Positions 8,655 to 64,000 of a stretch of 64,000 bases of DNA are shown piece by piece; positions within the stretch are counted from its first letter, which is position 1; each line of letters opens with the position of its first letter. Source of the DNA: Acidovorax sp. A79 (GTDB taxonomy: Bacteria; Pseudomonadota; Gammaproteobacteria; Burkholderiales; Burkholderiaceae_C). Below the pieces are notes generated by a model, which saw only the letters and a program-made list of their open reading frames with translations, was not told where the DNA came from and did not search any database. Position numbers and translations under genes: made by a program. The stretch is taken from positions 5,310,501 to 5,374,500 of the forward strand of contig NZ_AP028672.1 in NCBI RefSeq assembly GCF_041154505.1, written 5' to 3'.

Positions 8655-8760
8655 GGTGGGATTTCCTGTGGGTTGGGTTACAGTTCTTTTAATGGAATTG
8701 TAGTGAGTTGGGTTGACAGGCATTTGTCTGTCGTCAACCCGGCGTTTTCTGGAGATCGCG

Positions 8761-9003: not shown

Positions 9004-9085
9004 ACAGTCCATTGCGTTTGTCCCGCGCACCGCCTGCGCGGATGTACCCAGGTTGCGCCACAGAAAGAATCGATCATCGTTGCAC

Positions 9086-10119: not shown

Positions 10120-10171
10120 TGGGCGGCTGCTACCGTATTGCGCCCCGGGCCCTCCACTGCGGGGTGGCGCC

Positions 10172-11293: not shown

Positions 11294-11305
11294 AATATTT
11301 CTGCG

Positions 11306-12135: not shown

Positions 12136-12136
<1 letters not shown>
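11306..12136 (+). CDS. wzm: Polysaccharide ABC exporter, permease (Wzm-like)
   Basis: A 276-residue ABC-2 type permease with about six membrane segments. It exports completed O-antigen or capsule chains with the ATPase encoded next. Family features include FMGWNDVAKQYRRTFLGPVW near the N-terminus and the late segment QVSFFVTPVLWVPDQL, followed by HLNPLALFLDLVRSPLMG. All are typical of Wzm/KpsM-class proteins. Its TGA overlaps the ATG of the ATPase (TGATG), so the two subunits are made together. Confidence 0.92.
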
Positions 12137-12920
<784 letters not shown>

Positions 12921-12924
<4 letters not shown>

Positions 12925-14120: not shown

Positions 14121-14231
14121 GGCCCCTGCGAACGGGCCGGCACGCACGTTGATGGGCTGGCCAGCGCCTTTCGGGAAACATCCGGGGCGCGTGCCCTGGG
14201 CCTCCCTGTGGTGATGCCCGCCAAGGCAAAA

Positions 14232-14260
14232 CGCCCATGCGGGGCAGCATGGGCGCTTGT
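14232..14260. terminator. Bidirectional terminator between export locus and ilvD
   Basis: A perfect 9-bp stem (CGCCCATGC at 14232-14240, GCATGGGCG at 14247-14255) with a 6-base loop. It is flanked by AAAA before and CTTGTTT after, so it can work on both strands. It lies between the end of the propeller gene and the end of ilvD, which converge. Confidence 0.75.
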
Positions 14261-14332
14261 TTGTCCGGCGCGGCCCCGGGGGCGCGGCGGCCTGCCGCCA
14301 GAAAGGGCCATCAATGGCCGCTCATCCGTTCA

Positions 14333-48460: not shown

Positions 48461-48507
48461 ACAGCTGTCGATTGTAGGGTTGGCGGTTGTAAACGGTCGT
48501 AAAATCC

Positions 48508-48716
48508 CGTTGTTGGTGCTCGCGGTGTGGTTCACATGCCGCAGTTCAACGGGAAGCAGGGAGGTGCCGCCAACCATGGTGCGCCCAGCCTGCGCTGCCC
48601 CCGCAACGGTCAGCGGACGAATCGTTCCGATTCCCCCTTCATACACATGCCACTGGGTGCCTTGAACAAGCCCCTGGGAAGGCTTTGAAGGGTGTTCCGC
48701 CAGCCCGGATACCGGC
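48508..48716 (+). promoter_or_regulatory. Cobalamin riboswitch upstream of btuB
   Basis: The conserved blocks occur in order: GGTGC near 48515, GGGAAGCAGGGAGGTGCCG, the central GCTGCCCCCGCAACGGT (48594-48610), the B12 box GCCACTGGGTGCC (48650-48662), GGGAAGGC, and the closing GCCCGGATACC. It is placed 103 bases before the btuB ATG. Binding of adenosylcobalamin is expected to reduce btuB expression. Since the following genes are closely spaced, the whole B12 locus may be under this switch. Confidence 0.92.
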
Positions 48717-48818
48717 CAACACGGTGGTTGCACGCGCCCGATCAGGGTGCGCGCAGCCGTATCACCCATTTGCTGGCGGGGAGGCCGGCGCGGGTTTTGT
48801 TTGTTGACGATGTTCCCC

Positions 48819-50696
48819 ATGAAAATCCGTACCTCTCGTGCGCGCCTTGCTGCGCCGCTGTGCCTGCGTCCCGCGCTGGTGGCGCTGGCCGTTGTGGGCG
48901 CCTGCTCCGTGCAGGCCCAGCAGGCCGATGCCGGCGGCCCCGTGCTGCTGGCGCAGAACCTGCGCGCGCCCTCGCTGACCGAAACCGTGGTGACCGCCAC
49001 GCGCACGCCCCAGCCCTTGTCCGACCTGGTGGCCGATGTGACCGTCCTGGATCGCGAGACCATCGAAACCAGTGGCGCCACCGGCCTGGCCGACGTGCTC
49101 GCCCGTGTCCCCGGCATCGAGTTCTCGCGCAACGGCGGCCCCGGCACGACCACGGGCGTGTTCCTGCGCGGCGCTGAGTCGCGCTTCACGGCCGTGTACA
49201 TCGACGGCGTGCGCATCGATTCCCAATCCACCGGCGGCGCGGCATGGGAGTCGATCCCGCTGGCGCAGATCGACCGCATCGAAGTGCTGCGCGGCCCGGC
49301 GGGCGCGGTCTATGGCTCCGACGCCATGGGTGGGGTGGTGCAGATCTTCACCAAGCGCGGCGAAAACGGCACCGCGCCCTATGTGGGCGTGGGGTTCGGC
49401 AGCCACGGCACGCGCAAGATCGAAGCCGGTGTGAGCGGTGCCAGCGGCACGATCGACTACGCGCTGGGCATTGCACGCGAGGAAAGCAAGGGCTTCAACG
49501 CGCGCACCGTCGCCACGCAGAACCCCGACCGCGACGGGTATGAAAGCACCTCTGCCAACGCGCGGGTGGGCCTGCAGGTCAACGCCATGCACCGGCTGGA
49601 AGGCACGCTGCTGGTCAACGACCTCGACAGCGGCTACGACAGCGGACTGGGCAAGGATGACCGCAACAAGCACAGGCTGCATGCCCTGGGCCTGAACTGG
49701 CAGGCGCAATGGACCCCGCAGTACAAGACGCGCCTGCAGCTGACCGATTCGCGCGACAGGTACGAAACCAAGCCCTCGGTGTACCTGAGCGATACCCACC
49801 TGCGCGGCTACCTGTTCCAGAATGAATGGCGCGAGGGTGCGCACCTGTTGACCGCCGCGCTGGAGCGCCGCGAAGACAATCTGGAAAACAAGCCCATCGA
49901 CCGCAAGCGCTCGCAGGACGCCGTTGCGCTGGGCTATGGCTACAGCGCGGGCGGCCACACGGTGCAGGCCAATGTGCGGCACGACTCGGACAGCGAGTTC
50001 GGCGGCAAGGGCACGGGCAGCCTGGCCTACGGCTACGCCTTTGCACCCCAGTGGCGCGCGACGGCATCGGTGGGCACGGCCTTCCGGGCCCCCACGCTGT
50101 ACCACCGCTTCAGCGAGTACGGCACGGGGTCGCTCAATCCCGAGAGCAGCCGCAATGTCGAGGTGGGCCTGCGCTGGGCCGAGGGCGGCAGCAGCTTCTC
50201 CGCCACCGCCTACCGTAACCGGGTGCAGGATCTGATCACGTTCGGGGCCGCAGGGCCTTGTCCGTCGGATTTCGGCTGCTACGTGAACACCGCGCGGGCC
50301 GAGTACAAGGGAGTGACGCTGGCGGGTTCGTACCGCCTCGGCGGCGTGCAGCTGCGCGGCTCGCTCGATCTGCAGAACCCGCGCGACCTGGCCACGGGCA
50401 AGCTGCTGGCCCGCCGCTCCAAGCGCCACGGCACGCTCGGAGCCGACACGCAACTCGCTGGCTGGACGGTGGGCGCCGAGGTGCAGGCCTCTGGCCGCCG
50501 CTTCGACAACGCCGCCAACACCACGGTGCTGGGCGGCTACACGCTGGTCAGCCTGTATGCCAGCACGCGGGTTGCTCGCGATTTCACCCTGGTGGCGCGC
50601 GTGGACAACCTGGCCGACAAGCACTATGAGCTGGCCCGCACTTACGCCACCGCGGGCCGCACCGCCTACGTCGGCGTGAAGTGGGCCCCGCAGTGA
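48819..50696 (+). CDS. btuB: TonB-dependent vitamin B12 receptor
   Basis: A 625-residue outer-membrane receptor that takes up cobalamin with energy from TonB-ExbBD. The signal peptide is at residues 1-~35. A TonB box-like TETVVTATRTPQP leads to the plug domain (LADVLARVPGIEFSRNGGPG, then GVFLRGAESRFTAVYIDGVR). The beta-barrel ends in VGVKWAPQ with the usual aromatic C-terminal strand. It follows a cobalamin riboswitch, which supports the substrate. An R2 repeat lies after the stop. The start at ATG 48819 is chosen for the signal peptide. Confidence 0.95.
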   Translation: MKIRTSRARLAAPLCLRPALVALAVVGACSVQAQQADAGGPVLLAQNLRAPSLTETVVTATRTPQPLSDLVADVTVLDRETIETSGATGLADVLARVPGIEFSRNGGPGTTTGVFLRGAESRFTAVYIDGVRIDSQSTGGAAWESIPLAQIDRIEVLRGPAGAVYGSDAMGGVVQIFTKRGENGTAPYVGVGFGSHGTRKIEAGVSGASGTIDYALGIAREESKGFNARTVATQNPDRDGYESTSANARVGLQVNAMHRLEGTLLVNDLDSGYDSGLGKDDRNKHRLHALGLNWQAQWTPQYKTRLQLTDSRDRYETKPSVYLSDTHLRGYLFQNEWREGAHLLTAALERREDNLENKPIDRKRSQDAVALGYGYSAGGHTVQANVRHDSDSEFGGKGTGSLAYGYAFAPQWRATASVGTAFRAPTLYHRFSEYGTGSLNPESSRNVEVGLRWAEGGSSFSATAYRNRVQDLITFGAAGPCPSDFGCYVNTARAEYKGVTLAGSYRLGGVQLRGSLDLQNPRDLATGKLLARRSKRHGTLGADTQLAGWTVGAEVQASGRRFDNAANTTVLGGYTLVSLYASTRVARDFTLVARVDNLADKHYELARTYATAGRTAYVGVKWAPQ

Positions 50697-50782: not shown

Positions 50783-50838
50783 GTCGTGCGTGCCAGTTTC
50801 ATCGGCATGCCGGGAATGTGTCCCACAGGGTTGCTGAA

Positions 50839-52197
50839 ATGACCAGCTGCCCCGCGCTGCTGATTGCCGCCCCGGCCTCCGGCCAGGGCAAGACCACCGT
50901 CACCGCGGCCCTGGCGCGCCTGCATGCGCGGCAGGGCCGGCGGGTGCGGGTGTTCAAGTGCGGGCCGGATTTTCTGGACCCGCACTGGCACCAGCTGGCC
51001 AGCGGAGCGCCGGTGCACCAGCTCGACCTGTGGATGAACGGCGAGGCGGACTGCGCGCAGCGCCTGCATGACGCGGCGCGCGCGTCGGACCTGGTCCTGA
51101 TCGAAGGCGTGATGGGGCTGTTTGACGGCACCCCCAGCGCGGCCGACCTGGCCCGGCACTTTGGTGTGCCCGTGCTGGCCGTGGTCGATGCCTCGGCCAT
51201 GGCGGGCACCTTTGGCGCGCTGGCCTACGGCTTGCGCCACTACCGGCCGGGCCTGCCCTGGGCGGGGGTGCTGGCCAATCGCGTAGGCAGCGCGCGCCAT
51301 GCCGACATGCTGCAGGGTGGCTTGCACGATGCGGAGGACTGGATGGGGGCGCTGATGCGGGTGCAGTCTGGCACTGCGCCCGCTGCGGGCAAGGCCGGTG
51401 CGGCGCTGCTGCCCGAACGCCACCTGGGTCTGGTCGCGGCGCATGAGCTGCCCGACAGCCTGCAGCGTCTGGACGCCGCCGCCGATGCCCTTGCGGCCAC
51501 GCCCCTGGGCCAGATGACGCTGGAGGACCTGCAGCGCTGGGCCGTGGACTTTCCGGCCCCCGCGATGGTTGCGGCCGTGCCGCCCCTGCTGGCGGGCCGC
51601 ACCGTGGCCATGGGACGCGACGCCGGGTTCTGTTTCATCTACGCCGCCAATGTGCAATGCCTTGAACAGATGGGCGCGCGTGTGGTGTTCTTCTCGCCCC
51701 TGCACGATGCCGCGCTGCCCGACTGCGATGCCGTGTGGCTGCCCGGCGGCTACCCCGAGCTGCACACCGCGCAGATAGCGGCCAACACCGGCATGCAAGC
51801 CAGCCTGCGCGCCCATGGGGCCGCAGGCAAACCCCTGTGGGCCGAGTGCGGCGGCATGATGGCGCTGTTTGATTCCATCACCCTGGCCGACGGCGGCACG
51901 GCACCGCTCTGGGGCCTGCTGCCCGGCCGCGTGACCATGCAAAAACGCCTGGCGGCGCTCGGGCCGCAGCAACTGGCGGTGGCGGGGCACACCCTGCGCG
52001 GCCACACCTTCCACTACTCGACCAGCGACAGCAGCGCCCCCGTGGTGGCCCGCACGGCCCGCCCCCATGAAGCGGTTGCGCCGGATGCGGGCGAGGCGCT
52101 GTACCAGCAGGGCAGCCTCCACGCCAGCTACTTCCATGCGTGGTTTCCGTCCAGCCCCGAGGCCGTGGCGCATCTGCTGGGAGGCGTCTCGGCATGA
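50839..52197 (+). CDS. cobB: Cobyrinate / hydrogenobyrinate a,c-diamide synthase
   Basis: A 452-residue glutamine amidotransferase of the CobB/CbiA family. It amidates the a and c carboxylates of (hydrogeno)cobyrinate with ATP and glutamine. The N-terminal P-loop is APASGQGKTTVTAAL, followed by KCGPDFLDPHWH and EGVMGLFDG. The class I amidotransferase half has WLPGGYPELH and the nucleophile Cys in WAECGGMMALF. The final catalytic His is in LHASYFHAWFPS. The enzyme is cytoplasmic. The TGA overlaps the cobU ATG (ATGA). Confidence 0.94.
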   Translation: MTSCPALLIAAPASGQGKTTVTAALARLHARQGRRVRVFKCGPDFLDPHWHQLASGAPVHQLDLWMNGEADCAQRLHDAARASDLVLIEGVMGLFDGTPSAADLARHFGVPVLAVVDASAMAGTFGALAYGLRHYRPGLPWAGVLANRVGSARHADMLQGGLHDAEDWMGALMRVQSGTAPAAGKAGAALLPERHLGLVAAHELPDSLQRLDAAADALAATPLGQMTLEDLQRWAVDFPAPAMVAAVPPLLAGRTVAMGRDAGFCFIYAANVQCLEQMGARVVFFSPLHDAALPDCDAVWLPGGYPELHTAQIAANTGMQASLRAHGAAGKPLWAECGGMMALFDSITLADGGTAPLWGLLPGRVTMQKRLAALGPQQLAVAGHTLRGHTFHYSTSDSSAPVVARTARPHEAVAPDAGEALYQQGSLHASYFHAWFPSSPEAVAHLLGGVSA

Positions 52198-52796
52198 CTC
52201 CCACCCCGCACCCCATCACCAGCGAACTCATCCTGGGTGGCCAGAAAAGCGGCAAGTCCCGCCGCGCCGAGCTGCTGGCGCGCGACTGGCTGGCGCAATC
52301 CAGCGACCACCGCGCCGTGCTCATCGCCACGGGGCAAGCCTGGGACGACGAGATGCGTGAGCGCATCGCCCGCCACCAGCGGGACCGCGCCGAGCGCGTG
52401 CCGGGTCTGCGGACCGTGGAAGAGCCGCACGATGTGGCCGCTGCCGTGGTGTTGCACAGCACGCCGCAGACCCTGGTGGTGGTGGACTGCCTCACGCTGT
52501 GGCTCACCCACTGGACCATGCCCATGGGCTGCGAAGACATGGATTTGAAGCAAAAACAGGCTCTGGCTCTGGATTGGCAAGCGCAAGCAGCTATGTTTTT
52601 GATAGCAGTTCGGAAATCCCCCGGCCCCGTTGTTCTGGTGGGCAACGAAATTGGCCTGGGGGTCATCCCGATGGGGCGCGAGGTGCGCGCCTTCGTGGAT
52701 GCGCTGGGCACGCTGAACCAGCAGGTGGCCCAGGTGTGCCCGCGCGTCACGCTGATGGCCGCCGGGCTGCCCCTCACTTTGAAAGAACCTCGCTGA
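52194..52796 (+). CDS. cobU: Adenosylcobinamide kinase / GTP:cobinamide-P guanylyltransferase
   Basis: A 200-residue bifunctional CobU/CobP enzyme of the nucleotide-loop assembly. It phosphorylates adenosylcobinamide and then adds GMP. The P-loop is LILGGQKSGKSRRAE, the substrate region is VVVDCLTLWLTHW, and VLVGNEIGLGVIPMGREVR carries the conserved Asn-Glu. Residues ~117-140 (MDLKQKQALALDWQAQAAMF to LIAV) are encoded by an R1 repeat and replace the usual variable linker. The guanylylated His is probably the one in IARHQRDRAERV. Both ends overlap neighbouring genes. Confidence 0.92.
   Translation: MTPTPHPITSELILGGQKSGKSRRAELLARDWLAQSSDHRAVLIATGQAWDDEMRERIARHQRDRAERVPGLRTVEEPHDVAAAVVLHSTPQTLVVVDCLTLWLTHWTMPMGCEDMDLKQKQALALDWQAQAAMFLIAVRKSPGPVVLVGNEIGLGVIPMGREVRAFVDALGTLNQQVAQVCPRVTLMAAGLPLTLKEPR
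52548..52607 (+). repeat. R1 repeat, copy 4, inside cobU
   Basis: The core at 52578-52607 reads CAAGCGCAAGCAGCTATGTT then TTTGATAGCA. The stretch before it (AAGCAAAAACAGGCTCTGGC) looks like the extended part of the same repeat. It is translated in frame as part of CobU and is richer in A and T than the flanking codons. Confidence 0.65.
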
Positions 52797-53698
52797 TGAA
52801 ACCCACCCCCGTGCGCCGCATCCTGTGGGTGATCGCCATCCTGTTGCTGCTGGGCCTGCTCATGGCCGGGCTGGCGCGGGCGCAGCCTGTGCAGATCACC
52901 GACGACAAGGGCCGCAAGATCGCGTTGCCCCGCCCGCCCGAGCGCATCGTGAGCCTGCTGCCCTCGCTGACCGAAAGCGTGTGCGAGCTGGAGCAGTGCC
53001 ACCGGCTCGTGGGGGTGGACCGCTATTCCAACTGGCCCGAGGCCGTGGTCGGCAAGCTGCCCAAGATGGGCGGCGGCATAGATCCCAGCATCGAGGCCAT
53101 CGTCGCGCTCAAGCCGGACCTGGTGCTCATGTCCGTCAGCTCGCGCGCCAGCGACCGGCTGGAGGCGCTGGGCCTCACCGTCGTGCAGCTGGAGCCCAAG
53201 ACCCATGCCGACGTGCGCCGCGTGCTGGGCACCGTGAGCGACCTGCTGGGCGTGCCCCGCGCGCAGGGCTCCGACCGCCTCTGGCGTGTGATCGATGCGG
53301 GTGTGTTGGCGGCGGCGCAGTCCCTGCCACCCAGGGCCAAAAATGCGCGCGTGTACTTCGAGGTGAGCCGGGGGCCTTACGCGGCGGGCGAGGCGTCGTT
53401 CATCGGCGAATCGCTCACCCGGCTGGGGGTGCGCAACGTGGTGCCGGCGTCGCTCGGTCCGTTCCCGCGCCTGAACCCCGAATTTGTGGTGCGCGCCAAC
53501 CCCGACATCATCATGATCGGCAACCGCAGCATGCAGGCCATGGTGCCGTACCCCGGCTGGGCCAGCATGCGTGCGATTCGCGACAACCGGCTGTGCGTGT
53601 TCGGCCCCGGTGATTCGGACGTGGTGGTGCGACCTGGCCCGCGCATGGCCGAGGCCGCGCGCATCATGGCCCGCTGTCTGGTGGAGAAAGCTCCATGA
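52796..53698 (+). CDS. btuF: Cobalamin ABC transporter, substrate-binding protein
   Basis: A 300-residue periplasmic binding protein of class III (BtuF/FepB fold). The N-terminal signal is ILWVIAILLLLGLLMAGLARA. The binding domain starts RIVSLLPSLTESVCELEQCH, which is the family-typical opening. IDPSIEAIVALKPDLVLMS and PGWASMRAIRDNRLCVFG are also conserved. It binds cobalamin or corrinoids and delivers them to BtuCD encoded next. The ATG overlaps the cobU stop (TGATG), and the stop overlaps the btuC ATG. Confidence 0.92.
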   Translation: MKPTPVRRILWVIAILLLLGLLMAGLARAQPVQITDDKGRKIALPRPPERIVSLLPSLTESVCELEQCHRLVGVDRYSNWPEAVVGKLPKMGGGIDPSIEAIVALKPDLVLMSVSSRASDRLEALGLTVVQLEPKTHADVRRVLGTVSDLLGVPRAQGSDRLWRVIDAGVLAAAQSLPPRAKNARVYFEVSRGPYAAGEASFIGESLTRLGVRNVVPASLGPFPRLNPEFVVRANPDIIMIGNRSMQAMVPYPGWASMRAIRDNRLCVFGPGDSDVVVRPGPRMAEAARIMARCLVEKAP

Positions 53699-54729
53699 CC
53701 AGCCTTGCCATGGATTTGCCAACAGGTTCCGCCAGCCGCCGCGCGGCATGGTGTGCCGCCTGGCTGCTGCTGGCCAGTGTTGTGCTGACCGTGTGTGGCG
53801 CCAGCGTGGGCAGCACGGGTTTTGACAGCGTGCTGCGCATGCGCGGCGACCCCGTCGCCTGGCAGATCGTGTGGGACATCCGCCTGCCGCGCACGCTGGG
53901 CGCGTGGCTGGCGGGTGCGCTGCTGGGCCTGTCGGGTGCTGTGGCGCAGGGGCTGTTTCGCAACCCATTGGCCGACCCGTACCTGCTGGGCAGCGCCTCG
54001 GGCGCCGCGCTGGGCGGGGCGGTGGCGATGGCGCTGTTCGGGGTGTCGCCGGTGGCGGCGCAGTGGATGGCCCGCATCGGCATCACGGGCATGGCTTTCC
54101 TGGGCGCGGCGGGGGCGGTGGTGCTCACGCTGCTGTTGGCCAAAGGCGTGCAGCACACGCTGCGCCTGCTGCTGGCGGGGGTGATCGTGGGCGTGGTGCT
54201 GGGCGCGCTGCGCGACCTGGTGGAGCTGGCCTCGCCCGACATCCTGCAGGCCATGCAGGCGTTCACGCTGGGCAGCACCGCCTTTGTGGGCTGGATGGCT
54301 TGTGTGCTGATGGCCGTGGCCTGGGGGTTGTGCTCGGTGGTCGCCTGGATGCTGGCGCGCGCGCTCGATGGCCTCACGCTGGGCGAGGCCACGGCGGCCA
54401 GCCTGGGCCTGCCGCTCATGCCCATGCGCGTCGGGCTGGTGGCCGCCATGGCGCTGGCCACGGGCACGGCCGTGGCGCAAACGGGGCTCATCGCGTTTGT
54501 GGGGCTGGCCGCGCCACACCTGGTGCGCTCCATCGTGCGCGTGACGCACGAGCGGCACATCGTGCTCGCAAGCCTGATGGGCGCGGTGCTGCTGCTGGCG
54601 GCCGACATCCTGGCGCGCTGGCTGCTGGCACCGCAGGAGCTGCCCGTGGGCGTGCTCACGGCGGCGCTGGGCGGAACCTACCTGCTGTGGCTCATGCACC
54701 GGCGGACGTCGCAAGGTGGTTCGCTATGA
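53695..54729 (+). CDS. btuC: Cobalamin ABC transporter, FecCD-family permease
   Basis: A 344-residue permease with about ten membrane segments. Signature parts of the FecCD family are RLPRTLGAWLAGALLGLSGA, VAQGLFRNPLADPYLLGSAS, and GLIAFVGLAAPHLVRSIVRV. The dimer forms the pore of the B12 importer. The start ATG 53695 overlaps the btuF stop, and the stop overlaps the ATP-binding gene's ATG, so all three are made in a coupled way. Confidence 0.94.
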   Translation: MTSLAMDLPTGSASRRAAWCAAWLLLASVVLTVCGASVGSTGFDSVLRMRGDPVAWQIVWDIRLPRTLGAWLAGALLGLSGAVAQGLFRNPLADPYLLGSASGAALGGAVAMALFGVSPVAAQWMARIGITGMAFLGAAGAVVLTLLLAKGVQHTLRLLLAGVIVGVVLGALRDLVELASPDILQAMQAFTLGSTAFVGWMACVLMAVAWGLCSVVAWMLARALDGLTLGEATAASLGLPLMPMRVGLVAAMALATGTAVAQTGLIAFVGLAAPHLVRSIVRVTHERHIVLASLMGAVLLLAADILARWLLAPQELPVGVLTAALGGTYLLWLMHRRTSQGGSL

Positions 54730-54767
54730 ATTCAGTAGCTATCAGCGCTTGCCAGATAAGCGCCAGC
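54723..54767 (-). repeat. R1 repeat, copy 5, supplying the start of btuD
   Basis: GCTATGAATTCAGTAGCTAT then CAGCGCTTGCCAGATAAGCG and CCAGC. It is the R1 core in the inverse direction (compare 3239-3278). The ATG inside it is the start codon of the next gene, and the first ~14 residues of that protein (MNSVAISACQISAS) come from the repeat. Confidence 0.7.
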
Positions 54768-55544
54768 ATCGGAAATCGCTTGATATTGCAGGGCATTGAC
54801 CTGCAACTGCCTGCCGGGCGCTGGATCAGCATCGTCGGCCCCAACGGCGCGGGCAAGTCCACCTTGCTCAAGGTGCTGGCGGGCCTGCTGCCGCGCGCTG
54901 CGGTGCAGGGCGAAGTATTGCTGCTGGGCCGCCCACTCGCGCAGATCCCCGCACGCGAACGTGCCCGGCAGCTCGCCTGGCTGGGGCAGAACGAAGGCTC
55001 GGCCGACGACCTCACGAGCTACGACGTGGCCATGCTGGGCCGCCTGCCGCACCAGGCCTGGCTGGCACCGCCGGGTGCGGCCGACCACGCAGCGGTCGAG
55101 CAGGCGCTGCGCACCACGCAGGCCTGGGACTGGCGCCACCGCCCGCTGGCGCAGCTGTCGGGCGGCGAGCGCCAGCGCGTGTTGCTGGCCCGCGCCCTGG
55201 CCGTGCAGGCGCAGGTGCTGCTGATGGATGAACCCCTGGCCAACCTCGACCCGCCTCACCAGACCGACTGGCTGCACACCATGCGCGCGCTGGTGGACGC
55301 GGGCGGCACGGTGGTCAGCGTGCTGCACGAGGTGTCGCTGGCGCTGCAGGCCGACGACATGGTTGTGATGGCGGAGGGCCGCGTGCTGCACCAGGGCGCA
55401 TGCGATGCGCCCGCCACCCACGCCGCGCTGGAGAGCGTGTTTGACCACCGCATCCACGTGCGGCATCTGGATGGCATGTGGATGGCGCTGCCGTCCCTGC
55501 AACGCAAGAACAACAACCAAGGAATGAAGGAAGTGCAAGCATGA
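54726..55544 (+). CDS. btuD: Cobalamin ABC transporter, ATP-binding protein
   Basis: A 272-residue ATPase of the FecE/BtuD kind. Walker A is GPNGAGKST, the signature is LSGGERQRVLLARAL, Walker B is VLLMDEPLANLD and the H-loop His is in VLHEVSLAL. The start codon lies in an R1 repeat and overlaps the btuC stop (ATGA); the repeat-coded N-terminus is followed by the family-typical GNRLILQGIDLQLPAGRW. Its stop overlaps the ATG of the ExbB-like gene, which ties that protein to the importer genes. Confidence 0.93.
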   Translation: MNSVAISACQISASIGNRLILQGIDLQLPAGRWISIVGPNGAGKSTLLKVLAGLLPRAAVQGEVLLLGRPLAQIPARERARQLAWLGQNEGSADDLTSYDVAMLGRLPHQAWLAPPGAADHAAVEQALRTTQAWDWRHRPLAQLSGGERQRVLLARALAVQAQVLLMDEPLANLDPPHQTDWLHTMRALVDAGGTVVSVLHEVSLALQADDMVVMAEGRVLHQGACDAPATHAALESVFDHRIHVRHLDGMWMALPSLQRKNNNQGMKEVQA

Positions 55545-56008
55545 ACATCGAATCGGGTTTTTCGCAGGTCGCGCAGTCGCTGCTGTGGCCGGTGCTGGTG
55601 CTGGTGGGGCTGGCGTTTGTCTACGCGCTGTGGTCGGGCGGCGCCACGCTCATGGAGGCCTGGCAACGCTGGCGCCAGCCGCAGTACCGCTCGCTGCGCG
55701 TGGCCCCTGGCTTGTCGATGGAAGAACTGGAGTTGCAACTGGTGCGCCAGGTGGAGCCCGTGCGCCTGCTCAGCCGCCTGTCGCCCATGCTGGGGCTGAT
55801 CGCCACGATGATCCCGCTGGGCCCCGCGCTGCAGAGCGTGGCGGCGGGCAACGGCCAGCAGGCGCTGGCGGTGTTCAGCGGCGCCTTTGCAGGCGTGGTG
55901 CTGGCGCTGGCCGCCGCGTCGGTGGGCCTGGTGGTGTACTCCGTGCGCCGCCGCTGGCTGCTGGCCGAACTGCTGGTGGTGCGCAAGGAGCGCGGGGTGG
56001 CGCAATGA
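55541..56008 (+). CDS. ExbB/TolQ/MotA-like proton channel protein
   Basis: A 155-residue membrane protein with three segments: residues ~12-32 (LLWPVLVLVGLAFVYALW), ~80-100 (LSPMLGLIATMIPLGPALQS) and ~112-138 (FAGVVLALAAASVGLVVYSV). The second carries the P-x-L-G-L-I-x-T-x-I-P-L-G pattern of MotA/TolQ/ExbB proteins. It is shorter than ExbB (~240) because the cytoplasmic loop is reduced. The ATG overlaps the btuD stop, and the stop overlaps the DUF2149 gene. It probably forms a proton channel with the DUF2149 protein, to energise the CobN homologue. That is inference. Confidence 0.85.
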   Translation: MNIESGFSQVAQSLLWPVLVLVGLAFVYALWSGGATLMEAWQRWRQPQYRSLRVAPGLSMEELELQLVRQVEPVRLLSRLSPMLGLIATMIPLGPALQSVAAGNGQQALAVFSGAFAGVVLALAAASVGLVVYSVRRRWLLAELLVVRKERGVAQ

Positions 56009-56391
56009 CCTTGAAGCACCTGAATGTGCTGGCCGAGGACGACGACGACCCAATGCTGTCGGCCGTGAACCTGGTGGACGTGTTCCTGGTGCTCGTGGTG
56101 GCGCTGCTCACGGCCGTGGCCGTGCAGACCCAGACCAGCGCCAACGAGAGCGTCACCATCATCCGCAACCCCGGCCAGCCCGACATGGAAGTGGTGGTGC
56201 GCGAGCAGGGCAAGGAGGTGCGCTTCAAGGGCGCGGGCAGCGCGGCGCAAGGGCAGGGCGTGCGCGCGGGCGTGGCCTACCAACTCGAAGACGGCAACAT
56301 CGTCTACATCCCTGAAACGGGCGCTGCTCCTGCCGGCGCTTCGGCCGGTGGCGCGGGTGGCGCCGCCACGCCGGCACCCGCCAAGCCATGA
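56005..56391 (+). CDS. DUF2149 protein with ExbD/TolR-like membrane segment
   Basis: A 128-residue protein. After a short acidic cytoplasmic N-terminus (AEDDDDPMLSAVN) comes one membrane segment, NLVDVFLVLVVALLTAVAVQ. Its Asp lies where ExbD/TolR have the proton-carrying Asp (in E. coli ExbD: FIDVMLVLL). The periplasmic part holds VTIIRNPGQPDMEVVVREQG and ends in a Gly/Ala/Pro tail. The phrase matches DUF2149, known next to ExbB-like and CobN-like genes. It overlaps both neighbours by 4 bases. Confidence 0.85.
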   Translation: MTLKHLNVLAEDDDDPMLSAVNLVDVFLVLVVALLTAVAVQTQTSANESVTIIRNPGQPDMEVVVREQGKEVRFKGAGSAAQGQGVRAGVAYQLEDGNIVYIPETGAAPAGASAGGAGGAATPAPAKP

Positions 56392-59300
56392 AGGCGCTGA
56401 TCCTGCGCGCGGCACTCTGGTGCCTGCTGCTGGCTGCGCCGCTGGCGCATGCCGTGCAGGCGGACAAGGCCCAGGGCGCAGCGGGCGCCAACAAGGCCGC
56501 ACCCGTTCTGCTGTGGCTCACCTCCGACATCACCACGGCCACGCGCACGGCCATGGTGCAGCGCCTGGCCACCGAGGCAGGCCTGGGCTTTGCGCACATC
56601 GACTACCCGCTCGCCGGGCCGGCGGTGCTCGACACAGCACAGGCCCGGACGCTGGAGCGCGCGCTGGCGGGCGCTGCGCTGGTGTGGGTGGATGCGCCGC
56701 ATGCCAGCGTGGAGGCACGCCTGCGCCGCATGGCGGGGGCGCAGCTCGATGGCCGTGCCACACGTTCCCCCGGCCGCGTGGTGTGGGTGCCTGCGGGCGC
56801 CCCCGCCGCCGACCTGACCGCGCTCGATGCGTCCGGCCGCATGGTGGCCTACCTGCAGGCCGGTGGCCCGCGCAACCTGAAGAGCGCCATCGCCCTGGCG
56901 CGTGCCACCGTGGCGGGTGTGGCCATGCCCGTTTTGCCCGCGCCGGAGATCCTGCCCACCCGGGGCATCTACCACCCCGACGCGCCCCGGCTGCTCCCCA
57001 ACGCCATGGCGCTCGAGGCATGGCGCCAGGGCCAGCCCGCGTCGCTGCGCGGCCTGCCGGCGGTGGCCGTGCTGGTGCACCGCCACCATTTTGTCGATGG
57101 CAGCACCGAATGGCTCGATGCCTGGCTGCGCACTTTCCGCCAGCAAGGCCTGTTCGCCTATGCGGCGTTCGGCCAGCAGGTCACGGCGCAGACGCTGGCC
57201 GAGGTGCTGGAGCTGCCCCCCGAGAGCGGCATCGGACCCGGCCGCCTGCATGCCTCTGCCCTGGTGCTGCACCAGCTCGTGCCCCAGGCCGCTGCGCTGC
57301 AGCCGCTGCTGGCCCGCTGGGGCGCACCCTTGCTGGGCACGCAGCCGTACCGCGCAGGCGATGCCGCCGCGTGGGAGGCCAGCGACACGGGCCTGTCGCT
57401 GTCCGATGTGCCGTTCTACCTGGCGCAGCCTGAGGCGGCGGGTGCCATCGACCCGGTCCTGGTCGCCGCCCACGGCGCCGAGGGGCAAGACTTTCGCCTC
57501 ATCGAGCGCCAGGCCCAGGCCGTGGCCGCCAAGGCGCGGCGCCTGATCGCGCTGCAGACCAAACCGGCAGCAGACAAGCGCCTGGTGGCCATGGTCTACA
57601 ACTACCCGCCGGGCGGCACCAACTTCGGCGCATCGTTCCTCAACGTGCCGCGCAGCCTGGAGCAGGTCTCTGGCGGCCTGGCCCAGGCGGGCTACCGCAC
57701 GCAGCAGGTGCCCGAACAGGGCTGGATCGACGGGCTCAAGCCGCTGCTGGCCGCCTATTACCCCGGCGCCGATGTGCGCGCGCTGCTGCAAAGCGGGCAG
57801 GCCGCCGCGCTGCCGCTGGCGCGCTACGAGCAGCACCTGGCCACGCTGCCGAAGGCCGTGCGCGAGCGCATGAACGCGCACTGGGGCGCGCCCGAAAAGA
57901 GCCGCTATGTGGTCGAGTGGCAGGGCGAAAAAGTGTTCGCCATCCCGCGCCTGCAGGTGGGCAAGCTCTCGGTATTGCCCCAGCCCCCGCGCGAGGAAAC
58001 CCTGCGCCTGGGCCAGAACCCGTTCATGCACAAGAGCAAGGCGCCGCTGTCGCACCATTACCTGGCGGTGTACCTGTGGGCGCAGCTGGAGGCCGATGCG
58101 CTCATCCACTTCGGCACGCACGGCACGCAGGAATGGGCGGGCGGCAAGGCCCGTGCGCTCGATGTGCACGACGACGCGCTGCTGCCATTGGGCGACCTGC
58201 CCGTGGTCTACCCCTACATCGTGGACAACCTGGGCGAGGCCCTCACGGCCAAGCGCCGGGGCCGCGCCGTGCTGGTGAGCCACCGCACGCCCGTGTTCGC
58301 CCCGGCAGGCTTCGAGGCGCGCATGGCCCACATGCACGAGGTGATGCACGAATGGGAAACCGTGGATGAAGGCCCCACGCGCCGCGCGCTCGAAAAGCAG
58401 CTGGTGGCGCAGTTCGTGGAGCACCAGCTGCACCGCGACCTGGGCTGGAGCGCCGAGCGCATCGCGGCCGACTTCAGCGGCTTCCTGGAAATCCTGCACC
58501 CCTACCTGGACCAGCTCGCACAAAGCTCGCAGCCCAAGGGCCTGGCCGTGTTCGGCCGCGTGCCCGCGCCCGAGCAGCGGCGCGAGACCATCCTGCAGGC
58601 GCTGCGCAAGCCGCTGATCGAGGCACTGGGCGAAGACATCGACGAAGCCTTCCTCATCAAGCACGATGCCGTGCTGGCGGCGCGCCCCGCGCGCTGGTTG
58701 GAAGTGGCATTGAAGGACGCGCAGGCCGCCAGCGTGCTGGACCTGCGCCCCGTGCTGCCAGCGCAGGTGGCAACACCGGGTGCGGCGGGCGCATCCGACG
58801 TGGTGCGCGCCGAAGACCATGTGCCCAACCGCGCCGCGCGCAAGCCCATCGACACGCCCGCGCTGCTGCAGCTGGCCCACCGCGCGCAGGAGCTGGAGGG
58901 CCTGCTGGCCACCGAAGGCGAGATGCCCGGCCTGCTCGCAGGGCTGGAGGGCCGTTTCCTCACCGCTGCGTACGGTGGCGATCCGATCCGCAACCCCGAG
59001 AGCCTGCCCACGGGCCGCAACCTCACGGGGCTGGACCCGAGCCGCCTGCCCACGCGCCAGGCCTATGCCGTGGCGCAGACGCTGTTCAACGACTGGTTCA
59101 AGGACTACCAGGCGCGCCATGGCGGCCAGGTGCCGCAGCGCATGGCGTTGTCGCTCTGGGCGGGCGAAACACTGCGCCACCAGGGGATCATGGAAGCGCA
59201 GGCCCTCGTGGCGTTGGGCATGCGCCCGGTGTGGGACGACTCGGGCCGCCCGGTGCGTGTGGAGACCATTGCCGCAGAAGAGCTCAAACGCCCGCGCGTC

Positions 59301-60623
59301 GATGTGCTCATGAGCATCACCGGCTCGTACCGCGACCAGTTCCCCGCGCTGATGGCGCTCCTCGACCGCGCCGTGGCCCAGGCCGCGACGGCCGAGCCCG
59401 GCAATGTGATTGCGCGCAACACCGAGCAGATCGGCCAGGAGCTGCGCAAGCAGGGTGTGCCCCGCGCGCAGGCCGAGCAACTGGCGCGCGTGCGCTCGTT
59501 CGGCAACGCGGTGGGCGACTATGGCACCGGCCTGTCCGACGCGGTGCAGAGCGACGGCCTGCAAACCAACGATGCGCGCCTGGGCCAGATGTTCCTCGAA
59601 CGCATGAGCCAGCCCTATCTGGAGGGCGAACCGGTGACGGGGGTTGCGGGCGGCACGGCCGCGAAGGCGCTGGGGGCCCACCTGCGCCGTACCGACGCCG
59701 CCATCCTGTCGCGCAGCTCGAACCTGTACGCCATGGTCAGCTCGGACGACCCGTTCCAGTACCTGGGCGGCCTGTCGGCCGCAGCCCGTGTGGCCGGCCG
59801 GTCGCAGGGGCTGGAGCTGCACGTGGCCCAGCTGCAGGATGTGAGCGAGCCCACCACCGAAACCGCGCAGCGCGCCATTGCGCTGGAGATGCAGTCGCGC
59901 TACCTGCACCCGGGCTGGCTCCAGGCGCAGAAGGCCGAGGGCTATTCGGGCACGCTGCAGGTGCTCAAGGCCGTGCAGTTCGCCTGGGGCTGGCAGGCCG
60001 TGGCGCCCGACACGGTGCGCAGCGACCATTGGCAGAGTTTCTACGACGTGCTGGTGCGCGACAAGCACCAGCTGGGCCTGCCCGGGTGGCTGAAAGAACA
60101 TCCACAGGCCTACGCCCAGTCGCTGGAGCGCCTGGTGCAGGCGCAGCGCCAGGGCTATTGGCAGGCCGATGCCGACACACAAAAACAGCTGGCGCAGATG
60201 TACCAGGAGCTGACGCGTGCCGCACCGCTGGCGGCCGAACTGCCCAGCGTGCGCCGCTGGGTGGAGCAGGCCGCGCAGGGTGCGCCAGCGGCGGAATCCG
60301 CGCCCGCAGGCATGGCCGTGGCCACGCCGCAGTCGCCTGCCGCGCCGGCGCCGCGGCCCGTGCCGCCTGCTGCCGACCTGCCTGCGCCACCCGCCCAGGC
60401 AGAAGCCCCGCCCGCCGCACCCACCGTGCCCGCCATGGGCGTGCTGCTGGAGCGCCAGCCCGAGCGCGATGCCCCCGACACCGCCCAAGAACCCAGCCCC
60501 GTGGAGCGCATGGCCGGCATCGTGGCCCTGCTGGTCATGGCCCTGTTGGTGCTGGCGGGCGCTGCGTGGCAGGCGCGCCGTCCGTTCTCACTGTCCGCCG
60601 CGCCCGGCCTGGCCCGCGTGTGA
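56388..60623 (+). CDS. Envelope-anchored CobN/chelatase-H homologue
   Basis: A 1411-residue member of the CobN/BchH family. Family marks are [40 protein letters not shown] (His574 region), [19 protein letters not shown] and [14 protein letters not shown]. Unlike cytoplasmic CobN it starts with a Sec signal peptide ([19 protein letters not shown], residues 4-22). It ends in a Pro/Ala-rich linker (~1295-1365) and a membrane segment ([19 protein letters not shown], ~1376-1394), so the chelatase part should lie in the periplasm. It overlaps the DUF2149 gene and precedes cobO. The same layout is known for HmuS-type heme dechelatase operons (CobN-like, ExbB-like, DUF2149). The substrate here is unknown; corrinoid or another tetrapyrrole is inferred from the neighbours. 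Confidence 0.9.
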
Positions 60624-60651: not shown

Positions 60652-61221
60652 ATGCAGATCGAAACCCCACCCACCGAGAAGCGCTATGAAAAGCCCGAGG
60701 GCGAGCGCCGCGGCATCGTCATCGTCAACACCGGCGATGGCAAGGGCAAAAGCACGGCGGCCTTTGGCCTGGCGCTGCGCGCCCACGGCCGGGGCAAGGC
60801 CGTGAAGATCTTCCAGTTCATGAAAGTGCCCACGGCGCGTTTTGGCGAGCACCGCATGTTCGAGCAACTCGGCCTGCCCATCGAGGGCCTGGGCGACGGC
60901 TTCAGCTGGAAGAGCAAGGACCTGGAGCACTCGGCCCAGCTGGCGCGCGACGGCTGGGAGAAGGCGCGCGCCGCCATCCTGTCGGGTGAGCACTTCCTGG
61001 TGGTGCTCGATGAGATCACCTACCCGCTGATCTACGGCTGGCTCCCGCTGGAGGGTGTGCTGCAGACGCTGCGCGAGCGGCCCAAGGAGGTGCATGTGTG
61101 CCTCACCGGCCGCCGCTGCCCGCCCGAGATCATCGAGCTGGCCGACACGGTGACCGAGATGCAGATGGTCAAGCACGCATTCAAGGCGGGCATTCCCGCG
61201 CAGCGTGGCATCGAGGACTGA
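60652..61221 (+). CDS. cobO: Corrinoid adenosyltransferase
   Basis: A 189-residue ATP:cob(I)alamin adenosyltransferase of the CobA/CobO type. The P-loop is [39 protein letters not shown] and the Walker-B-like [17 protein letters not shown] follow. The C-terminus has [20 protein letters not shown] and [20 protein letters not shown], which are diagnostic. It converts imported or modified corrinoids to the adenosyl form, which is the substrate of CobU. It follows the CobN homologue by 28 bases. Confidence 0.95.
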
Positions 61222-61246: not shown

Positions 61247-61269
61247 ATAATGCAACTTGGTTGCGTTAT
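61247..61269. promoter_or_regulatory. 23-base inverted repeat before TonB-dependent receptor
   Basis: ATAATGCAAC (61247-61256) and GTTGCGTTAT (61260-61269) are reverse complements with one mismatch around TTG. It lies 36 bases before the receptor's ATG. Size and AT-rich ends are like operators of Fur-superfamily metal regulators, but it does not match a standard Fur or Zur box, so the regulator is open. Confidence 0.5.
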
Positions 61270-61304
61270 GCTTTCGCCCTTCCGCTTTCCCAAGGTCCTG
61301 TTCC

Positions 61305-63422
61305 ATGCGCGTTTCCCTGACTTCCATTTCCCTGTGCCTCTGGTCTTTTGGCATGCAGTCACCGGCTGCGGCCGAGTCCGCCACCCTGTTGCCGGTGGAG
61401 GTGACGGCGCCGCGTGAGACGGCCGGCAGCACGCTGGGGCTCGACCTGCCTGGCACCACCGGCTCACGCCTGGGCCTCACCGCACGCGAGACGCCCGCCA
61501 GCGTGAGCAGCCTGGGCGCGGCCGACATCGCCGAGCGCAGCCTGACCCGCGCGCAGGACGTGGCCGTGCGCATGCCCGGGATCACCGAGGCGCCGGCCCC
61601 CGGCAACGGCGGCACCAGCCTGGTGGCGCGCGGCTTTGCGGGCCACAGCTCGGTGGCTCAGATGGTGGACGGCACGCGCCTCATCGTGGCCTCGGGCACC
61701 ATCACCTACCCGTTCTCGACCTGGCCCATGGAGTCGGTCGAGGTGCTGCGCGGCCCGGCCTCGGTGCTCTATGGCGACGGGGCGATCGGCGCGGCCGTGA
61801 ACTACGTGACCAAGCGCCCGGCCTTCGGAACGCCGCAGCGCGAGGCGTTCCTGAGCGTGGGTTCGTTCGGCAGCGTGCAGGGCGGCGTGGGCCTGCGCGG
61901 CCCCATCAACGATGTGCTGGCCTACTCGGTCTACCTCGATGCCGAAAAGAGCGACGGCTACCGCCAGTTCATGGACACGCAGCGCCACAACTACGCGCTG
62001 GCCCTGGCCGTGCGCGCCAGCCCCGACCTGAATGTGACCCTGTCGCTGGACGGTGGCGTGAACGACGATGCGCGCTACTTCGGCACCCCGCTGCGCAATG
62101 GCGTGCTCGACGAGCGCCTGCGCCGCACCAATTTCAACGTGGCCGACTCGGTGGTCCAGTACGACGACCGCATCTGGCGCGCCAAGGTCGACTGGCAGGC
62201 CGCCGCCGGCGTGCGCCTGCGCAACGAGACCTACCACCTGACCACCGACCGCCACTGGCGCAATGCCGAGGCCTATGCCTTCAACGCCGCCGGCACGGCC
62301 GTGAACCGCAGCGACTACCTGGAGATCCTGCACGACCAGCAGCAGGCCGGCAACCGCCTCGACGCCGCGTTCGACGGCCACCTCGGCGGCATGAAGAACC
62401 GCTTCATCGTGGGCCTGGACTGGTACCGCACCAGGCTGCTGCACACCAACAACTCCCCGTACGGCGGCGCGAGCACGGTGGACCCGTTCAATTTCGTCCC
62501 GGGCGGCTTCATCAGCCCCGTGCCCACCCTCCCGGGCCGCGCGTCCGAACTCCAGACCACCGCGCTGTTCGCCGAGAACGCGCTCGACCTCACCAAGGAA
62601 TGGAAGCTCGTGGCCGGCCTGCGCAGCGACCGCATGGAGCTTGACACCACCGACCTGCGCACGGGCGTGAACCTGGTCAAGAAGTATTCGCCCGTCACCG
62701 GCCGCCTGGGCGCCGTGTGGTCGCCCAGCGAGGCGCTGTCGCTCTACGGCCAGTTCGGCACCGGCACCGACCCGCTGTCCGGCGCGCTGTCGCTGCCGGG
62801 CGGCGGCAACACCTTCGACCTCACCAAGGGCCGCCAGGTCGAGGTCGGCGCCAAGGGCGCGGTGCCCGCCGTGCGCGGGGAGTGGACCGTGGCGCTGTAC
62901 AAGATCGAAAAACGCAACCTGCTGTCACGCGACGCCGGCAACCCCAACCTCTCGCAGCAGGTGGGCCAGCAGTCCTCCACCGGCATCGAGCTGGCCTTCG
63001 CGGCCGAGCCCGTGCGCGGCTGGACCATCGACGCCAATGCCGCCTTGCTGCGTGCGCGTTACGACGCATTCAAGGAACTGGTCTCCGGCGCCCTGGTCTC
63101 GCGCGATGGCAACACGCCCACCGGCGTGCCCGAGCGCACCGCCAGCATCTGGACCACCTACCGCTTCCTGCCGCAGTGGCAGGCGGGTTTTGGCGCGCGC
63201 TACGTGGGCGCGCGCCAGGGCAACACCGCCAACACCACGCAACTGCCGTCGTATGTGGTGCTGGATGCCTCGCTGGCCTACGACCATTCGCGCAACCTCA
63301 AGCTCGGCCTGGCCGTGAAGAACCTGGCCGACCGCGACTATGCGCTGGCCGGCACGGCCAACGCGCGCTGGCTGCTGGGTGCGCCGCGCACCGTGCAGCT
63401 GACCGCGCGCGCAACGTTCTGA
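61305..63422 (+). CDS. TonB-dependent siderophore-type receptor
   Basis: A 705-residue outer-membrane receptor. The signal peptide is residues 1-~22 (LCLWSFGMQSPAAAE). A TonB box-like TLLPVEVTAPRE is followed by the plug domain (LTRAQDVAVRMPGITEAPAP, then VEVLRGPASVLYGDGAIGAA). The barrel ends in RTVQLTARATF with the terminal Phe. It resembles the Fe-siderophore (Fiu/FhuE-like) group. Placement after cobO suggests a metal complex or a tetrapyrrole as alternative ligand. The PepSY-type protein that follows is commonly paired with siderophore receptors, which favours iron. Confidence 0.9.
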   Translation: MRVSLTSISLCLWSFGMQSPAAAESATLLPVEVTAPRETAGSTLGLDLPGTTGSRLGLTARETPASVSSLGAADIAERSLTRAQDVAVRMPGITEAPAPGNGGTSLVARGFAGHSSVAQMVDGTRLIVASGTITYPFSTWPMESVEVLRGPASVLYGDGAIGAAVNYVTKRPAFGTPQREAFLSVGSFGSVQGGVGLRGPINDVLAYSVYLDAEKSDGYRQFMDTQRHNYALALAVRASPDLNVTLSLDGGVNDDARYFGTPLRNGVLDERLRRTNFNVADSVVQYDDRIWRAKVDWQAAAGVRLRNETYHLTTDRHWRNAEAYAFNAAGTAVNRSDYLEILHDQQQAGNRLDAAFDGHLGGMKNRFIVGLDWYRTRLLHTNNSPYGGASTVDPFNFVPGGFISPVPTLPGRASELQTTALFAENALDLTKEWKLVAGLRSDRMELDTTDLRTGVNLVKKYSPVTGRLGAVWSPSEALSLYGQFGTGTDPLSGALSLPGGGNTFDLTKGRQVEVGAKGAVPAVRGEWTVALYKIEKRNLLSRDAGNPNLSQQVGQQSSTGIELAFAAEPVRGWTIDANAALLRARYDAFKELVSGALVSRDGNTPTGVPERTASIWTTYRFLPQWQAGFGARYVGARQGNTANTTQLPSYVVLDASLAYDHSRNLKLGLAVKNLADRDYALAGTANARWLLGAPRTVQLTARATF

Positions 63423-63450: not shown

Positions 63451-64000
63451 ATGCTGAAGAAGCTCGTCATCTTCGTGCACAAGTGGCTGGGCGTGGTGCT
63501 GGCGCTGTTCTTCCTCATGTGGTTCGTGAGCGGGGTGGTGCTGTACTTCGTGCCGTTCCCCAGCCTCACGGCGGCGGAGCGGCTGGCCGCCTTGCCCGCC
63601 CTGACGCTGGAAGGCCCGGGATGCTGCCTTGCGGCGCAGGATGCCGCCCAGCGCGCGGGGCTGCGGCCTGCGGTGGGCGGCGAGGCGCGCCTGGGCATGC
63701 TGGGCGATGCGCCGGTGTGGCGCCTGCTGGCCACGGAAGAGGCAGTGCCGGCACGCGCCGTGGCGCGTGCGCCGCAGCCCGATGCCAGGCCGCGCTGGCG
63801 CACCGTGGACGCGCGCAGCGGGACGCTGCTCGCGCCGCTGTCGCCGGACGCGGCCGCCCGGGTGGCCGAGGCCTTCAGCGGCCGCCGCGCCACGGGCACC
63901 GAGTGGGTCGAGCGCGACCAGTGGACGGTGCCGCAGGGCCTGGATGTGCACCGTCCCCTCATCAAGGTGCTGCTGGACGGCGATGACGGACTGCAGCTGT
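63451..64000 (+). CDS. PepSY-associated membrane protein (partial, 3' end outside window)
   Basis: The ATG at 63451 opens a frame that runs off the window: MLKKLVIFVHKWLGVVLALF, then FLMWFVSGVVLYFVPFPSLT. The HKW-x-G at the first membrane segment and the W-F/L-x-SG-x3-Y segment are the start of PiuB/PepSY_TM proteins, which are thought to reduce or release iron taken up by siderophore receptors. About 183 residues are visible, with a PepSY-like periplasmic part (RWRTVDARSGTLLAPLS). It lies 28 bases after the receptor gene and is probably co-transcribed. Confidence 0.85.
   Translation, partial: MLKKLVIFVHKWLGVVLALFFLMWFVSGVVLYFVPFPSLTAAERLAALPALTLEGPGCCLAAQDAAQRAGLRPAVGGEARLGMLGDAPVWRLLATEEAVPARAVARAPQPDARPRWRTVDARSGTLLAPLSPDAAARVAEAFSGRRATGTEWVERDQWTVPQGLDVHRPLIKVLLDGDDGLQL

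Follow-up and report, generated by a model that had tools for sequence, protein, structure and literature searches.

CobN is a large metal chelatase, usually an enzyme of vitamin B12 synthesis in the cell interior. Here we describe a CobN-family protein whose gene, in a 64,000-nucleotide stretch of the Acidovorax sp. A79 genome (contig NZ_AP028672.1, positions 5,310,501 to 5,374,500; "the window" throughout), follows genes for an ExbB-like protein and a DUF2149 protein, the three being referred to hereafter as the triad. That CobN-like proteins occur together with ExbB-like and DUF2149 proteins is already known from the hmu operons and from PA1922-PA1925 of Pseudomonas aeruginosa, and the proposal of a B12 link for a CobN-exbBD-tonB cluster dates from 2012. 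The accessible text of the hmu-operon literature (PMC12583661, PMC6460266, PMC13227078) presents HmuS (BtuS) as a heme de-chelatase of Bacteroidota accompanied by HmuT/U/V, and leaves the role of the partner proteins open; BtuS was proposed by Rodionov et al. 2003, as cited in PMC6460266. The features given there as defining HmuS are a Met-rich insertion (domain IV) and the axial ligands Met-79 and His-254 (excerpts of PMC12583661), the same authors regarding most remaining sequences of the superfamily as not reliably annotatable. For the CobN-exbB-exbD-tonB cluster of Geobacter (Trichlorobacter) lovleyi plasmid pSZ77, a part in cobalamin metabolism or corrinoid-precursor transport was suggested in 2012, in a discussion that, in the sections available, concerns ExbB/ExbD/TonB and not the DUF2149 pair (PMC3403914). 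The Zur-linked PA1922-PA1925 genes (a TonB receptor, a CobN-like gene, an "ExbD-like" gene and a hypothetical) are co-induced, and their role is described as undetermined in the portion of PMC4542158 at hand.

Our reading of the Acidovorax locus, to which we assign a probability of roughly 0.4, is that the triad constitutes an envelope form of class I tetrapyrrole chelatase for corrinoid salvage, driven by protons and inserting or exchanging cobalt. The parts of this reading differ in weight: a corrinoid role is likely, proton drive, which the original prediction also put forward, is plausible and would be somewhat the better bet, and insertion or exchange of the metal, rather than its removal, is evenly poised.

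The corrinoid assignment derives from the genetic setting. The triad belongs to an operon (Table 1) that reads riboswitch-btuB-cbiA-cobU-btuF-btuC-btuD-(exbB-DUF2149-cobN)-cobO-TonB receptor-PepSY_TM, all on the + strand. Four-base overlaps link btuD to exbB (55541-55544), exbB to the DUF2149 gene and the latter to cobN, confirming the overlapping arrangement of three genes that the original prediction had described. Among genomes of the order, DUF2149 was found in 22/300, and in 28/200 of the family. Thirteen relatives with a window-type triad were recovered from fetched stretches, 12 of which share with the window a location in a btu operon, so placed in 13 genomes of the family (own genome included; one, L174, is the window's own species). 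The arrangement varies in L166, where cobO precedes the triad, and in L175, a 14-kb contig that reads receptor-PepSY_TM-triad-cobO with no btu genes and no riboswitch. A cobalamin riboswitch accompanies 12/13 btu-linked copies (the exception, L178, is a contig that starts inside cbiA) and is present in every operon copy whose stretch takes in btuB (12/12), which supports the earlier claim that the system is wired into cobalamin uptake. The sharpest case is L128, a Comamonadaceae plasmid on which a triad stands alone: a riboswitch of its own lies some 90 bases ahead of exbB, no B12 gene is annotated nearby, and the fetched stretch, whose gene table is incomplete, has no annotated receptor gene. 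The riboswitch was absent from 16/16 receptor-CobN-ExbB-DUF2149 loci tested (L028, L031, L032, L034, L036, L037, L038, L053, L056, L058, L082, L084, L101, L112, L117 and L179); two genomes, G372 and G474, carry one btu/window-type and one receptor-type triad each. The riboswitch gives the window-type CobN group a regulon and a likely substrate class. A further link is to cbiA, which stands immediately before the triad in 7/13 copies and immediately before cobN in L042-L044 and Marinobacter, so that two separate lineages have it next to the chelatase gene or the triad. In the last case, plasmid NZ_CP092285.1 of Marinobacter sp. M3C (L226, 2754-16072), the order is riboswitch-TonB receptor-cobalamin-binding protein-ABC transporter-cbiA-cobN-cobO-cobQ-bluB and no ring genes are annotated in the stretch; this predicted B12-operon CobN supports export and corrinoid salvage.

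The grouping of the three genes is not a chance one, since among 100 other DUF2149 loci (picked by their DUF2149, at least five being the same contig twice) an ExbB-like gene is present in 100/100 and a CobN of triad type in 78/100. A different set of partners characterises canonical CobN loci (n = 9), in which CobW occurs in seven, ChlI in five and ExbB or DUF2149 in none, whereas window-type relatives (n = 13) have the ExbB-like/DUF2149 pair in 13/13 and CobW, ChlI or ChlD in 0/13 (stretches of up to 20 kb compared; reference proteins drawn from some of the nine canonical loci). The pair would appear to stand in place of the AAA+ ring.

The CobN-Mg_chel domain (PF02514) of the window protein is full length, with residues 154-1264 aligned to model positions 2-1089 of 1090, and the NCBIfam label is cobaltochelatase subunit CobN (NF004644, 1477 bits, over cut-off). 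Its N-terminus resembles a signal peptide (a hydrophobic core followed by A-x-A, judged by eye), and near the other end a Pro/Ala linker (46% Pro/Ala over a 100-residue stretch whose end lies 50 residues short of the C-terminus) leads into a hydrophobic segment with a 17-residue mean hydropathy of 2.72. By hydropathy, such segments at both ends are found in 12/13 window-type rows versus 0/10 canonical CobN/BchH, and in 76/89 non-canonical CobN rows (N-terminal in 80, C-terminal in 83; six partial rows set aside). The sole window-type row without both is L173, the start of whose CobN reads in another frame from the body (10200-14455 in G302), reflecting either a sequencing error or a decaying gene. 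The domain match and hydropathy uphold the earlier description of a CobN/BchH-family protein with signal peptide, linker and C-terminal membrane segment, and the recurrence in relatives supports its envelope anchoring: from sequence, CobN very probably sits at the cell envelope, and its location would be periplasmic. One further protein, P0043 (1684 residues, from a Xylophilus ampelinus metagenome-assembled genome), has DUF2149 and CobN in one frame; it comes from that single assembly, is possibly an artefact and is not used as evidence.

The assignment of the ExbB-like protein depends on its relatives and its model, because its own match to MotA_ExbB (PF01618) scores 17.4 bits, under the 22.9 cut-off of Pfam. 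Relatives do carry PF01618, profile searches match MotA (E 0.019) and TolQ (E 0.05), and the AlphaFold model (predicted local distance difference test, pLDDT, 91.4) has a three-helix fold for which ranks 1-38 of a Foldseek search against the PDB are all ExbB or TolQ entries (probability up to 1.00, although the best E is just 0.043 and TMq is 0.33-0.56). These results bear out the three-helix MotA/TolQ/ExbB-like protein of the original prediction. Polar residues of transmembrane helices 2 and 3 (TM2 and TM3) line the proton path of ExbB, TolQ and MotA; in the window protein TM2 Thr89 is invariant in 20/20 and 66/66 aligned rows, and Pro92 of the same helix is also invariant. The DUF2149 protein has one predicted membrane helix followed by a short strand-rich domain. 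Asn22 and Asp25 of the helix are invariant in 21/21 and 65/65 aligned rows, and Asp25 lies near the helix start, as does the membrane Asp of ExbD/TolR/MotB, so that the earlier claim of a DUF2149 protein with an ExbD-like membrane Asp holds.

A 51-row tree of hand-chosen rows separates triad-type CobNs, Prevotella HmuS included, from soluble CobN/BchH (SH-like approximate likelihood ratio test, SH-aLRT, 99), and a 30-row tree, likewise hand-chosen, gives the same split with support of 100; the exact place of HmuS is unsure because of its long branch. CobNs linked to B12 riboswitches fall into three clades: one holding the window's CobN together with L166 and plasmid copy L128; another, L042-L044 with Marinobacter; and a third, T. 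lovleyi with L025. Approximately unbiased (AU) tests reject joining the window's clade to L042-L044 (p 7e-60) or to T. lovleyi (p 1e-5). In the third clade, L026 is without a riboswitch, and L027 also falls here, outside the riboswitch scan.

The genome content is consistent with salvage. CbiC/CobH is an enzyme of both corrin-ring pathways, and in the Acidovorax genome (completeness 100%) it was not found; there is one CobN only, and no match to CobS (TIGR01650), the genome-wide search having been for CobS and not for CobT, ChlI or ChlD. On these three counts the bacterium should not make the corrin ring. The earlier statement that CobS/CobT partners are missing accordingly stands for CobS, while CobT was not covered genome-wide. 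CbiC is likewise absent from 13/14 genomes with a window-type triad, own genome included. The exception, G446, has CbiC along with CbiD and CbiG, and its only CobN is that of the triad; CbiD and CbiG are marks of the early-cobalt route, which uses no CobN. Separately, CobS-like matches of 490-590 bits (one over the curated cut-off) were seen in G083, G158, G267 and G176, in which a DUF2149 locus is present and CbiC is absent. The corresponding position was compared in makers of the ring: in G433 and G314, of the same family, corrin-ring genes come after btuB-cbiA-cobU-btuF-btuC-btuD, where the window has the triad, and the same-genus maker G479 has CobG-type ring synthesis plus CobW-CobN-ChlI-ChlD near its btu genes. 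The triad therefore occupies the place where these relatives keep a corrin-supplying module.

We envisage the following sequence of events. Upon B12 shortage the operon would be switched on, and BtuB would bring corrinoids in. CobN, once exported, would be tethered by its C-terminal helix at the periplasmic face; near the hydrogenobyrinate stage it would insert Co(II) into metal-free corrins or swap out an incorrect metal, the ExbB-like/DUF2149 pair acting as a small proton-driven motor that replaces the AAA+ ring of CobS/T or ChlI/D. BtuFCD would then import the product, and CbiA, CobO, CobQ, CbiB, the CobD-like protein, CobU and CobT would carry it on. In its most specific form, which we consider rather doubtful, this amounts to a class I insertase that works outside the cytoplasm on the proton gradient, with ExbB/DUF2149 in place of the AAA+ ring, and that completes scavenged corrins lacking a metal, or carrying the wrong one, by supplying cobalt in the periplasm, so that a non-maker obtains B12 from unfinished corrins.

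Several considerations together favour insertion or exchange towards cobalt. A riboswitch that turns genes on at B12 shortage implies that these genes should make B12, not unmake it. The neighbouring cbiA encodes an enzyme that amidates cobyrinate or hydrogenobyrinate (as stated in excerpts of PMC8123684). In the part of PMC12174906 available, hydrogenobyrate, a metal-free corrin, binds Cu about 200 times faster than Co and, by division of the rates reported there, Zn about 40 times faster; a postulate cited in the same text holds that such metals cannot leave the corrin without destruction of the ring, copper being freed there by reduction.

One alternative is HmuS-like de-chelation, in which the metal of incoming heme or non-cobalt corrinoid is taken out to free metal or ring; HmuS itself de-chelates heme with NADH. 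HmuS (9d26) is the best PDB sequence match of the window CobN, the hmu operons have the same partner types and the same membrane anatomy at both ends, and the catalytic His (HmuS His-538) is kept as the second His of HFGTHG, this position being also kept in aligned canonical CobN rows and hence not specific. The PepSY_TM protein downstream is possibly a reductase, which would suit such a role. The residues do not support the HmuS reading, although the partner types agree. The Met-rich insertion was not found (4 Met in the 283 residues from HxGTHG to GGDP, versus 35/416 in Prevotella HmuS), nor was a Met-79 equivalent (no Met-Gly at the aligned site) or a His-254 equivalent (no His-Gly-Arg in the first 500 residues), the N-terminal alignment being uncertain for the latter two. 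The position of HmuS His-1209 is Asp in 13/13 window-type rows, in L042-L044 and in T. lovleyi; it is His in HmuS and in 6/23 receptor-type rows. Riboswitch control and the cbiA neighbourhood moreover point to corrinoids, which cobalt-type metals are postulated (as cited in PMC12174906) not to leave intact. For these reasons (the residues, the removal postulate and the riboswitch logic) the removal of metal from incoming hemes or corrinoids, which the original prediction considered possible, is judged the less likely course, and de-chelation unlikely.

Corrinoids might instead be bound and handed over by proton-motive force without metal chemistry, for instance by being pried from BtuB or BtuF. 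P. gingivalis HmuS has been suggested to act as a heme carrier (accessible text of PMC13227078), and, the lone plasmid triad excepted, receptor or uptake genes accompany the riboswitch-linked copies that were examined; yet the window's clade retains the catalytic His, the operon already has a BtuF-like protein, and a 1400-residue chelatase would be a costly carrier, leaving handover improbable. Were the pair simply to energise TonB-dependent receptors, with CobN a mere neighbour, one could understand why a BtuB-like receptor is found in 73/100 of the other DUF2149 loci and why CobN was not shown in 22/100 (some on short contigs). The pair is not simply such an energiser, because the T. lovleyi plasmid (NC_010815, with tandem riboswitches upstream) carries ExbB-like and DUF2149 genes plus a separate ExbB-ExbD-TonB set in one gene run; the lone L128 triad, with its incomplete gene table, likewise argues against it, as does the four-base overlap of the pair with cobN in the window, and we rate the idea as distinctly improbable. 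The NCBIfam name and score would fit a misread start and a conventional cobaltochelatase that takes part in B12 synthesis in the cytoplasm; there is, however, no CbiC and no CobS match in the genome, CobW/ChlI/ChlD are missing from the stretches of 13/13 relatives (CobW in 7/9 canonical loci), and the signal-like start and C-terminal segment recur in relatives and in none of the canonical proteins. On the lack of CbiC and a CobS match and on the membrane segments we reject it, its likelihood being very slight.

A number of observations weigh against the proton-driven insertase or exchanger proposed here. Copper can be taken out of a corrin by reduction (in the available part of PMC12174906), so exchange or removal stays conceivable, and HmuS, the nearest characterised relative, runs the opposite reaction. 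A source of metal-free corrin for the organism is assumed, and the activity of the protein is read from its sequence. An enrichment of the triad in non-makers was tested and not found: CbiC is present in 33/200 genomes of the family, 1/14 of the triad holders versus 32/186 of the others (Fisher p 0.47), so its lack in 13/14 holders is no enrichment, such lack being common across the family. The window's cbiA lies after btuB, and in 6/13 copies, this one included, it is not next to the triad. As for the motor, the window ExbB-like protein is without the TM3 Thr present in the majority of one set of aligned relatives. The DUF2149 AlphaFold model is poor (pLDDT 63.7), and profile search of DUF2149 gave no ExbD match and TolR only at E 1.3. 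The DUF2149 match itself is weak in L042-L044, at 24-36 bits. In Marinobacter, the N-terminus of CobN is signal-like, yet a membrane segment at the C-terminus is lacking and the stretch examined showed neither ExbB nor DUF2149; this B12-operon CobN argues that the pair is not always needed and the motor not indispensable.

If the proposal is true, an ExbB-type motor puts proton-motive force to periplasmic chemistry, an output that would be new to these motors, beyond flagella, TonB uptake and Tol-Pal. It would also explain "cobaltochelatase" in some non-makers, a known cause of misleading annotation (according to excerpts of PMC8123684), and reveal that corrins are traded unfinished or without their metal.

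Table 1. Features of the riboswitch-led operon, in window coordinates, with the basis of each assignment.
Feature	Position	Strand	Basis
Cobalamin riboswitch aptamer (RF00174), operon leader	48497..48734	+	Rfam 77.8 bits, E 1.8e-17
btuB, TonB-dependent B12 receptor	48819..50696	+	TIGR01779 9.6e-129, under curated cut-off; start picked by eye
cbiA/cobB, cobyrinate or hydrogenobyrinate a,c-diamide synthase	50818..52197	+	NF002204 404 bits, over cut-off
cobU	52194..52796	+	NF004469 8.9e-44, 149 bits (cut-off 161)
btuF-like periplasmic binding protein	52796..53698	+	TroA_like NF038402 48.9 bits, over cut-off; BtuF NF002894 6.8e-13, under cut-off
btuC-like permease	53695..54729	+	BtuC and FhuB models ~1e-50, under cut-offs
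btuD-like ATPase	54726..55544	+	heme / corrinoid ABC (ATP-binding cassette) ATPase models 5e-58 / 6e-56, under cut-offs
ExbB/TolQ-like subunit, 155 aa	55541..56008	+	relatives with PF01618, profile matches, AlphaFold model
DUF2149 protein, 128 aa	56005..56391	+	Pfam PF09919 1.7e-23
CobN-family protein, 1411 aa	56388..60623	+	Pfam PF02514 2.8e-256
cobO, corrinoid adenosyltransferase	60652..61221	+	NF004637 216 bits, TIGR00708 196 bits, both over cut-offs
Second TonB-dependent receptor, siderophore-receptor type	61257..63422	+	TIGR01783 271 bits, over cut-off
PepSY_TM membrane protein	63451..64000, on to 65037	+	same contig read past window end

Past the window the same contig continues with cbiB, a cobD-like gene (under cut-off), cobQ and cobT, and the predicted products make the cluster one for most steps after the corrin ring (CbiA, CobO, CobQ, CbiB, CobD-like, CobU and CobT; the final synthase was not searched for). 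The nearest named proteins are from Acidovorax. The siderophore-type receptor and PepSY_TM genes (61257-65037) between cobO and cbiB adjoin the triad in some relatives only; the two recall FoxA-FoxB, and we take PepSY_TM to be perhaps a periplasmic reductase. A scan for Zur control of receptor-type triads, with a consensus motif, matched 3/100 loci versus 2 in shuffled sequence and lent no support; two of the three matches, in L037 and L117, are close to the receptor start. Pairs of ExbB and DUF2149 without CobN were seen in Cupriavidus L045, L049 and L106 (around 6000-11200), after a large gene (RND-type, resistance-nodulation-division, efflux PF00873 in L106) and before a ChaN-like haem-binding protein (PF04187 in L049 and L106); the pair may serve other tetrapyrrole machines there. 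Another such pair, in L055 (10347-11726), precedes a HAMP/HisKA_3 histidine kinase. In Nitrosomonas europaea (L102, 5200-9300) the reading of a receptor-type CobN is broken into three open frames; cobO and a BtuB-like receptor lie nearby on the other strand.

As far as we have seen, what is new here is the operon of Burkholderiales, a riboswitch with a triad immediately after it, the three separate B12-linked clades, the slot of the ring module and the lack of the features that define HmuS. The literature we met, which leaves subscription journals mostly uncovered, held no description of a Burkholderiales operon that joins a B12 riboswitch to CobN, ExbB and DUF2149, and we do not claim that none has been published. 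With HmuS the triad shares a CobN-family body with an anchor at either end, ExbB-like (HmuU) and DUF2149 (HmuV) partners and a conserved catalytic His, but it differs in its B12 riboswitch and salvage operon, its separate clade and its residues, and no HmuT-like gene is among those identified in the window operon. The PA1922-PA1925 genes belong to a zinc regulon, unlike the window operon, and the 16 riboswitch-free loci are of their receptor-CobN-ExbB-DUF2149 type (P. aeruginosa lying outside that sample). Plasmid pSZ77 is similar in its B12 character, its CobN without CobST, its riboswitches and its ExbB-like and DUF2149 genes, and dissimilar in its CobN clade, its additional ExbB-ExbD-TonB and DUF2162, and the early-insertion B12 synthesis that it encodes. 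ExbB-ExbD-TonB and TolQ-TolR-TolA resemble the pair in the ExbB/TolQ-like fold, the TM2 Thr and a single-helix partner with a membrane Asp, homology of DUF2149 to ExbD not being established; they drive an envelope-spanning rod, not an enzyme. The CobNST and CobN-ChlID cobaltochelatases share the homologous CobN body, whereas theirs is soluble, driven by ATP through AAA+ partners, often accompanied by CobW, and encoded in genomes that make the ring.

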